This document shows, one piece after another, positions 578-12,922 of a DNA stretch of 24,041 bases (the first letter of the stretch is position 1; the number at the start of each line of letters is the position of its first letter). Source of the stretch: a virus; IMG/VR virus record IMGVR_UViG_3300027754_000436, positions 1-24,041 of that record, one strand, 5' to 3'. The notes under the pieces are model-generated. The model did not search any database, was not told the origin of the DNA, and worked only from the letters and a program-made list of their open reading frames with translations. The translations under genes and the position numbers were made by a program.

Positions 578-630
578 CTATGTACTTCGAGAGAGAGGTA
601 TTTTAGGAGTTAAACATAAAAAATAAAAAT

Positions 631-1209: not shown

Positions 1210-1265
1210 GTTTAAGACACTCGCGGACAAAGGTAAAAATAATTTAGTTAAACATAAAACACACT

Positions 1266-11031: not shown

Positions 11032-11169
11032 TTAGTTTGGCCAAATTTTATTTTGGTCCAAATTTTTTGTGTGAGAACGAAATTTAGAAGGATTATTGTT
11101 TGTAGATATTTTAGTTAGAATACCACCTAGTAAACTAGCACATAAGATAAGAATTAAAAGTAATTGCAT
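11032..11169 (-). CDS. Possible tiny minus-strand membrane or exported peptide, 45 aa
   Basis: Reading the minus strand from the ATG at 11169, the peptide starts MQLLLILILCASLLGGIL, a hydrophobic segment like a signal peptide or membrane anchor, followed by a polar basic tail ending at 11032. It would be convergent with the gene ending at 11030. No family match and no clear promoter; a chance ORF in AT-rich DNA remains possible. Confidence 0.35.
   Translation of the reverse strand: MQLLLILILCASLLGGILTKISTNNNPSKFRSHTKNLDQNKIWPN
11036..11068 (+). terminator. Hairpin terminator, probably bidirectional
   Basis: TTTGGCCAAA (11036-11045) pairs with TTTGGTCCAAA (11052-11062) with a single bulged T, followed by six Ts (11063-11068). 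It ends the + strand operon. It also overlaps the 3' end of the possible minus-strand gene at 11032-11169, and AT-rich symmetry could let it work in both directions. Confidence 0.6.
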
Positions 11170-11310: not shown

Positions 11311-11341
11311 TTTGATTAGTGAATAAATTTTCGTATCTTTG
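11311..11341 (+). promoter_or_regulatory. Consensus host-type promoter for a noncoding RNA
   Basis: TTTG (11311-11314), a 19-base spacer, then TATCTTTG (11334-11341): an exact match to the Bacteroidota vegetative promoter. No ORF follows for more than 200 bases; a folded RNA and a terminator do. The TTCG before the -7 element is shared with the promoter at 13350. Confidence 0.8.
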
Positions 11342-11344
11342 ACT

Positions 11345-11514
11345 TATAAAAATTAAGGTTACGATATAGTACGATGTTGGTGGGGGATACAAATATTTGG
11401 TCCATAGTTACTCCCAAAGAAACAAAACCAAACACCCCACCAACCTCCCGTACAAAAGATTTTATGTTTAACTCGATTATAGAAAAGTAGTGGATTTTAT
11501 CTACTACTTTTTTT
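11345..11514 (+). ncRNA. Structured small RNA of about 170 nt
   Basis: The RNA is framed by a consensus promoter (11311-11341) and a strong terminator (11484-11514). Nested helices are visible: TACG (11370-11373) with CGTA (11449-11452), GTTGGTGGGG (11376-11385) with CCCCACCAAC (11435-11444), and TTTGGT (11396-11401) with ACCAAA (11427-11432), separated by internal loops. This gives one long interrupted rod. The 10-bp GC-rich helix is very unlikely by chance in this AT-rich genome. It could be a stand-alone phage RNA, a 6S-like polymerase mimic, or a leader RNA with attenuator for the genes from 11560. Start and class are inferred. Confidence 0.7.
11484..11514 (+). terminator. Strong Rho-independent terminator of the small RNA
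   Basis: The 12-bp stem AAAGTAGTGGAT (11484-11495) pairs with ATCTACTACTTT (11499-11510) with one G-T wobble and a three-base loop. The T run continues to 11514. Confidence 0.9.
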
Positions 11515-11540
11515 GTGTCATAGATATTTATAGGAAATAA

Positions 11541-11559: not shown

Positions 11560-11694
11560 ATGGCAAAAGCTAAAGCAGGTGCTGGAACTAGTACAAAAAA
11601 AATAACTTTCGGCAAAAGAACAAAGGGTAAGGCAAAGAAATCGTATAGCAAATACGAAGAGAAACCAAAGAAGTATAGAGGACAAGGTAGGTAA
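11560..11694 (+). CDS. Tiny basic protein, 44 aa
   Basis: A 44-codon frame starting MAKAKAGAGTSTKKITFGKR, with about one third Lys or Arg, no hydrophobic segment and a Gly-rich basic end. It finishes two bases before the next start (TAATAATG), so it is co-translated with the large gene downstream. The composition suggests nucleic-acid or polyanion binding. It resembles small basic internal phage proteins, but no family is recognised. Confidence 0.7.
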   Translation: MAKAKAGAGTSTKKITFGKRTKGKAKKSYSKYEEKPKKYRGQGR

Positions 11695-11696
11695 TA

Positions 11697-12896
11697 ATGA
11701 AAAATGTATCAAACACGTATGGTTACTATTTGACCGAAGATAGTGAGACGGTAGAGTTGCAGGGTAATTTTAAGGAGAATTTTATTTATCTTCCTACAAA
11801 AGACCCGAAAGAACAACTTAACTATAAGGTGTTTGTATCTCCTAAAAAGAATGTAAACTTTGCTATACAAATAGTTGGTGGGGATAATCCACAGACAATT
11901 TATATACCTCAACACATCTATAAAGATTTAGATTTTGCTTATTATGAGAATAACCCATATTATGTTATAAAAGATATTACGATTATTAAATTAGATTTTA
12001 CAGATACTGGTAATAAGTTAATTACATACTTAAAAACAAAGTTTGAAAAGGCAACAGATGGTTTATCCAAACTATCACAAGCAGGTGTTGATTCAGTTGA
12101 CAACTATGCCGGCTTTAGTACAAATGGTCAACCAGTAGATGAAGATATATTAAAACAAATTCTTTTTTTATTTGATGAGCAAAACGATATTATATTTGTT
12201 GATAAAAATGTAAAATTAGTGGATGAAACAATAGTTAAAGAAAGAAATTATAAATCAAATCGTATTAAAGGTAAGTTTGCATACACTAGTAATTACTTTG
12301 ATTCGACTGGTAAATTTAAGGAAGGTATATTAAATAGTAAATCAAACATTAAATTAGAAACAACCACTGGCTTAAATATTTCACAATTAAACGATTTTGT
12401 AAAAGATTTTGCAGGCAGTAGTCTTACAGAAATTAACTCAATATATAAAACCAATATTGTAAAAGATACAATTATATCAAACGCACCAAAGGTATTAGGA
12501 ATGATTATGAGTGGCATTCCACTTGTAGCACCATTAGTAAAAGGTACATTAGATAAGTTGGCACAATTAAAAAAACAAAATGCTGCTAAACAATTAGAAC
12601 AAGCAAACGCAATTGGTGGTATTAAAGGAGAAGCAACGGATAAGCTTGATGATGTAAAGGGTTTATTTTCAACGCAAAAATCATTGGTTTCTAAATACCA
12701 AAGTTCTATAATGTTACCGCCTACTAATATAAAAAAAATAAATACATCATTTGGAAGTGGATTACCCACAATACCAAATGCTTCATTGCCAACATTACCA
12801 AAATTACCGGCAGCTCCAAATGTTCCAACTATAAATTCAATTAAAACAACACCATCAAGTATAAAACAAATAAACGCAGATTTTTTAAAGTTTTAA
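11697..12896 (+). CDS. Large hypothetical protein, possible virion component, 399 aa
   Basis: No family is recognised. The first 100 residues are beta-rich (a VFVSPKKNVNFAIQIVGG segment and IYIPQHIYKDLDFAYYE). The middle is mixed, and residues about 265-290 form a hydrophobic stretch (VLGMIMSGIPLVAPLV), followed by a Lys/Ala/Gln-rich coiled-coil-like region. The C-terminal 60 residues are a Pro/Leu/Thr-rich repeat (IPNASLPTLPKLPAAPNVP). This pattern, and the position after the possible late element with a small basic protein, suggest a structural or ejected protein. That is inference only. Confidence 0.75.
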   Translation: MKNVSNTYGYYLTEDSETVELQGNFKENFIYLPTKDPKEQLNYKVFVSPKKNVNFAIQIVGGDNPQTIYIPQHIYKDLDFAYYENNPYYVIKDITIIKLDFTDTGNKLITYLKTKFEKATDGLSKLSQAGVDSVDNYAGFSTNGQPVDEDILKQILFLFDEQNDIIFVDKNVKLVDETIVKERNYKSNRIKGKFAYTSNYFDSTGKFKEGILNSKSNIKLETTTGLNISQLNDFVKDFAGSSLTEINSIYKTNIVKDTIISNAPKVLGMIMSGIPLVAPLVKGTLDKLAQLKKQNAAKQLEQANAIGGIKGEATDKLDDVKGLFSTQKSLVSKYQSSIMLPPTNIKKINTSFGSGLPTIPNASLPTLPKLPAAPNVPTINSIKTTPSSIKQINADFLKF

Positions 12897-12922
12897 TTTA
12901 ACTCATTATATTTATAGATAAT

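Follow-up and report, generated by a model that had tools for sequence, protein, structure and literature searches.

The RNA locus

The DNA analysed here (the window) is a 24-kb virus record, and between a small gene on its minus strand (about 11032-11169) and a 44-aa gene that starts at 11560 there is a stretch in which a conserved coding frame is absent and which, judging from its sequence, probably encodes a discrete RNA of about 165 nt. The stretch opens on the plus strand with a host-type (sigma-A) promoter at 11311-11341 (TTTG at 11311-11314, TATCTTTG at 11334-11341) that matches the flavobacterial consensus. The arrangement TTTG-N17-23-TAnnTTTG is found four times on the plus strand of the window and three times on the minus strand, TATCTTTG itself occurs a single time on the plus strand, and the copy at 11311 is the only one on that strand that lies outside genes and not directly before one, in agreement with the earlier note, which had described a consensus promoter that is not followed by a gene. 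Since in Flavobacterium psychrophilum the TAnnTTTG box occupies -12 to -5 (PMC9723704), the transcript is predicted to begin at about 11346, which slightly shifts the start at 11345 that had been proposed before.

The predicted small RNA extends from 11346 to 11514 on the plus strand (about 165-169 nt), and the minimum free energy of this strand is -48.5 kcal/mol, whereas its dinucleotide shuffles give -31 +/- 4.0 kcal/mol (z -4.35, 0 of 200 shuffles). A rod at 11369-11453 is formed by the pairing of GTACG (11369-11373) with CGTAC (11449-11453), of GTTGGTGGGG (11376-11385) with CCCCACCAAC (11435-11444), and of TTTGGT (11396-11401) with ACCAAA (11427-11432), all on the plus strand, as are the 5' arm that precedes it (11357-11368; GGTTA, GATATA), which pairs weakly with 11463-11473, and the intrinsic terminator stem with its T tail (11481-11513). 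The minimum free energy and centroid structures agree on one dominant fold in which the terminator is intact. All parts that had been described for a structured orphan RNA with its own promoter and terminator can thus be found at the sequence level.

The gene 3' of the RNA (11560-11694, plus strand) encodes a 44-aa basic protein and is mentioned for context only, as it is probably outside the mechanism discussed below. The protein, ending in KKYRGQGR, belongs to a family that is widespread in phage contigs, where it is found in varied gene contexts with or without the RNA (L102, L103, L105-L134). The sequence TATTTATA at 11525-11532 and again at 12909-12916, in both cases shortly 5' of an ATG (11560 and 12923), may represent a second (late) class of promoter or leader. 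The minus-strand ORF on the other side (11032-11169) encodes 44-45 aa with a hydrophobic N-terminus (MQLLLILILCASLLGG...) and is conserved in contig L088, and relatives have about 150 nt of extra DNA near its 3' end.

Conservation in related phages

Homologs were searched with the protein of a 399-aa gene in combination with a hairpin pattern, which detected three more RNA-bearing contigs (L018/L002/L085, L086, L084), and then with a loop pattern, which detected a fourth additional one (L088). In these four contigs of the phage group the RNA is 91-93% identical to the window copy at the DNA level and the gene order is the same, the alignable DNA around the RNA shows 66 to 89% identity, and the protein encoded two genes past the RNA has only 58-64% aa identity. 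The latter protein (window 11697-12896; L088 3073-4740) diverges fast, and in L088 it has C-terminal tandem repeats (SGGKSNTFSI...) unlike its neighbours. No wider homologs were detected in phage records or in genome contigs, and a covariance model of the RNA applied to 40 relatives gave no convincing member, its best hit (E 0.03) being dismissed after inspection. A scan with the second of the two antisense segments described below returned just the known contigs and chance matches. Three candidates were rejected: L083 has the same hairpin arms and L087 and L089 have the same 17-nt loop, yet all are unrelated GC-rich contigs, and in the last two the 17-nt matches are Shine-Dalgarno (SD) plus ATG sequences on the opposite strand, probably matched by chance.

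Two small ORFs could be considered at the locus, one on the plus strand from the ATG at 11373 and one on the minus strand from about 11406, and each loses its frame in at least one of L086, L084 and L088 (by eye). As indels shift or break both ORFs while the apical nucleotides stay identical, the locus is conserved as a nucleic acid and not as a protein. The pairings are kept in the homologous phages, as would be expected for the structure that had been proposed, but the RNA is too conserved for much covariation: as the sequence varies little, there is only one compensatory pair (U-A to C-G, in the terminator) besides a few changes that affect one side of a pair, and a stem that is altered in L088 still pairs there for the most part. 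The longest runs that are invariant in all five RNAs have 29 nt (ATTTGGTCCATAGTTACTCCCAAAGAAAC) and 26 nt (AAAGATTTTATGTTTAACTCGATTAT).

Comparison with known RNA classes

In its rod-like form and similar size the RNA resembles 6S RNA and 6S-Flavo, and this had led to the suggestion of a 6S-like RNA that binds the host RNA polymerase, with which its phage origin would be in line. Such a function is now extremely improbable. The covariance-model search that had been proposed as a check, carried out with Rfam 15, left 6S (RF00013) and 6S-Flavo (RF01685) unmatched at the gathering score and down to E = 10, a large central bubble resembling an open promoter is absent from the predicted fold, and the most conserved parts of the RNA are antisense to phage mRNA starts, which accounts for the invariant segments. 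The other Rfam families gave no match at the gathering score and only noise at E<=10.

The earlier note had alternatively considered a regulatory leader of the genes 11560-12896, and the position of the terminator directly before these genes would be in line with a cis-acting leader or attenuator, just as UUUGGUCCAUAGUUACUCCCAAA with the following A-rich tail at the apex of the rod (GGU..UAG.UAC.CCC) recalls a PreQ1-I riboswitch (RF00522). In the window this model scores 17.3 bits (E 0.08 over 71 bases), which is far under the cut-off of 39 bits, and the relative L086 does not match it at all. The P2 pseudoknot of PreQ1-I, in which the L1 loop pairs with the A-rich tail, is absent, as inspection of the sequences found the loop UAG without a tail CUA in five of five, the PreQ1-like part lies within a long rod, and QueC is absent from two long RNA-bearing contigs, G001 and G003. 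The single dominant fold speaks to some degree against attenuation, and a leader function is disfavoured by the intact terminator that separates the RNA from the genes and by the occurrence of the following 44-aa family also in phages that have no such RNA. Any of these cis-acting functions is therefore very unlikely.

Two antisense segments and their predicted targets

The complements of the invariant runs were searched in the two long RNA-bearing contigs, G003 (L088, 148 kb) and G001 (L084, 195 kb), and both runs contain a segment with exact complementarity to phage translation starts. Segment 1, CCATAGTTACTCCC (CCAUAGUUACUCCC), is located at 11402-11415 on the plus strand within the 29-nt run, and segment 2, TTTTATGTTTAACTC (UUUUAUGUUUAACUC), at 11460-11474 on the plus strand within the 26-nt run, between the rod and the terminator. 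Both are invariant in all five RNAs.

Segment 1 exactly complements GGGAGTAACTATGG, that is, the SD, the spacer and the AUG of one orthologous gene (G003 126228 and G001 27047), over 14 nt, or 17 nt including wobbles. The gene encodes a protein of 99 aa with two transmembrane (TM) stretches that begins MGFFKDLFDDDNN, and it is surrounded by genes for small membrane proteins, for probable lipoproteins and for a class-3 lipase. The protein is not named by any Pfam or PHROG family, and to call it holin-like would be only a guess, but genes for endolysin and holin come directly after its ortholog in the Flavobacterium phage immuto (Immutovirus; 51% aa), which supports a connection of the target with lysis. 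Immuto is a distant relative, and its whole record, searched with the leader motif described below and with the target gene, gave no sign of the RNA. The segment is mostly unpaired in the structural ensemble (unpaired fraction 0.67), and the net pairing energy, with the opening cost of both partners included, is about -19 kcal/mol. In G003 the RNA gene lies more than 70 kb from this lysis cluster.

Segment 2 exactly complements a leader motif, GAGTTAAACATAAAA (GAGUUAAACAUAAAA), that in a set of genes usually lies 10-12 nt 5' of the ATG, and the pairing of 13-15 nt would cover positions about 10-25 nt 5' of the start codons. Predicted target leaders in the window are GAGTTAAACATAAAA at 607-621 (plus strand), before the gene 631-1209, and TAGTTAAACATAAAA at 1245-1259 (plus strand, 14 of 15 positions), before the gene 1266-1493. 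Copies of the motif recur, preceding the ATGs of many phage genes by about 10 nt, in the window (608-621, 1246-1259) as well as in G001 and G003, and with up to two mismatches allowed, the sole reverse-oriented copy in each of these two genomes lies in the RNA. A scan of viral sequences for the leader motif was too unspecific for use.

Most of the genes with the motif have a TAnCTTTR promoter box (TAnCTTT[A/G]) just upstream, and from the -12/-5 rule the target mRNAs would start within or just before the pairing site. These genes are designated as early here on the basis of the host-type promoters and some of the products, and this label is our inference. Mostly they encode small proteins without an assigned function. 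Among the genes behind an imperfect leader are those for proteins with a sigma-70 region 4 (Pfam 5.6e-16) and with an RNA polymerase alpha-CTD (9.4e-13) and for an AAA ATPase. The small sigma-70 region-4 and alpha-CTD proteins are found at G001 193034 and G003 66811, each behind an imperfect leader motif, and they are candidates for phage proteins that take over host transcription.

The predicted fold keeps most of segment 2 in pairs, with an unpaired fraction of 0.29-0.40, as the 5' arm covers part of it, and this arm (11357-11368) may thus serve as a lid. The net pairing energies with the opening cost of both partners included are -6.5 to -11.6 kcal/mol, and the one leader that was folded is unstructured. 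Since segment 1 pairs far more strongly (about -19 kcal/mol) and covers both SD and AUG, and since segment 2 is partly sequestered, it could be that the antisense RNA has only one real target set, either the lysis-cluster gene or the early leaders, and that the other match is a coincidence or a relic. This has some chance of being correct but is not what we expect, as neither segment varies among the five RNAs and, in two genomes, each matches more often than chance would predict.

Another explanation would be that a protein recognizes the leader motif, either as an operator in the DNA or on the mRNA, and that the RNA gene carries the inverted copy as a further site of this protein or as a decoy. 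The motif core GTTAAAC comes close to a palindrome, and many copies lie 9 or 12 nt past the promoter box, which is a possible operator position. However, copies at 30-31 nt from their promoter also stand 10 nt before the ATG, and two exact ones without a promoter in range are found 7 and 10 nt before an ATG. A protein site also leaves segment 1 unexplained, and the invariance of the RNA extends well past the motif, which is why this explanation is unlikely.

How far the matches exceed chance was determined with the 221 and 231 translation starts called in the two genomes, excluding the RNA's own locus. Six starts per genome have at least 13 contiguous complementary nucleotides, whereas RNAs with shuffled dinucleotides average 0.07 and 0.05 and reach that number in none of 400 shuffles, a result that is no advance prediction, as the complementarity was seen first and tested afterwards. 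Same-sense and reversed controls gave no start at 13 nt or more. As five of the six matching starts in each genome share or overlap the leader motif, these matches amount to about two independent facts and not to twelve. In G003 the RNA locus also ranks first among intergenic regions on the coding strand for the number of starts that share one complementary 11-mer (5; next 2); in G001 the locus overlaps an ORF on the other strand and for this reason dropped out, and the same scan found no clear analogue of the RNA in three RNA-less relatives. For the AT-rich leaders, RNAduplex energies separate real from shuffled sequences poorly (most z values lie between -1.6 and +0.5), and the case thus rests on contiguous complementarity and not on these energies.

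Co-occurrence of the RNA and its targets

The pattern AGTTAAACATAAA-N5-12-ATG is present in five copies in G001 and four in G003 and occurs also in the window, and it is absent from all 19 relative records without a detected RNA, several of which have 145-237 kb, as well as from two short contigs, of 28 and 9 kb, that do carry the RNA. Three RNA-less phages have orthologs of the segment-1 target with 63-78% aa identity, and their start regions are without GGGGAGTAACT, whereas AGGGGAGTAACTATGGG is kept in 11 contigs of the RNA-bearing group, even where the protein has diverged. In two of these 11 contigs (85 and 120 kb) the leader motif and the target are present and the RNA was not detected; they match neither of the two proteins that flank the RNA elsewhere, and they may be fragments, the RNA locus probably lying outside of the contig. 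The co-occurrence is partly a matter of shared descent, as the RNA-less relatives are more distant overall, and no compensatory change between a segment and its target was seen. As observations on the gene content of this group, arrays of about 25 tRNA genes are found in L146 and L149 (G003 and G001), and ARAGORN calls a putative tmRNA with an unusually long tag in G001.

A putative two-segment regulatory RNA

Taken on the sequence evidence, the RNA is probably a trans-acting small RNA (sRNA) with two antisense segments, by which the phage would repress the translation of its own early leaders and of a gene in the lysis cluster. From the consensus sigma-A promoter the host RNA polymerase would produce it as a separate molecule of about 165 nt, and the RNA would fold into the rod and offer its antisense segments in the rod apex and between the rod and the terminator. 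Segment 1 would then pair with the SD, the spacer and the AUG of the two-TM mRNA in the lysis and membrane gene cluster, and segment 2 with the common 5' leader of the early-type phage mRNAs. The pairing is predicted to block the entry of ribosomes, by which early messages would be damped and the lysis-cluster protein would be delayed, and with its host-type promoter the RNA may itself be early and limit its targets as they accumulate. Activation of the leaders is conceivable as an alternative effect, although activation by release of an inhibitory structure is disfavoured, as the folded leader is unstructured.

The target search covered the phage genomes. It is known from the trans-acting, Hfq-dependent sRNAs PreS of lambda and VpdS of VP882, both from temperate phages, that phage sRNAs can act on host mRNAs, PreS for example on host dnaN (PMC12197685). 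A main function on host mRNAs is nevertheless quite unlikely for the RNA described here, as it has strong matches in the phage's own genome. Like PreS and VpdS it would be an independent trans-acting phage sRNA, but one that is predicted to act on early and lysis-cluster mRNAs of the phage itself.

Pairing of a phage-encoded RNA with phage mRNA is known from the antisense RNAs sar of P22, which blocks translation initiation, and OOP of lambda (PMC12197685). Each of these is described as aimed at one phage gene, whereas the RNA described here is stand-alone and would address a leader of several mRNAs and a second site. A repression of lysis has been proposed also for PAK_P4as15 of the Pseudomonas phage PAK_P4 (PMC12197685), but this is an antisense RNA of the endolysin gene, unlike the present RNA with its gene far from the lysis cluster. 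The reviewed base-pairing RNAs of phages are mostly from temperate phages, and they are either encoded opposite a single phage gene or directed at host mRNAs (PMC12197685). A targeted search of the literature, mostly outside subscription journals, found no description of an equivalent RNA, which for this reason is weak evidence.

It is possible, and we propose this tentatively, that part of the temporal programme of these large flavobacterial phages is carried out by one two-segment sRNA that recognizes a leader common to many early mRNAs (with mismatches also those of the sigma-70 region-4 and RNA polymerase alpha-CTD proteins) as well as the SD and AUG in the lysis cluster, and that leader and RNA have coevolved in this group. 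With two short segments and named targets, the prediction is easily testable. If it is true, the progression from early to late would be controlled at the RNA level, in a phage group and a host phylum in which such control has received little study.
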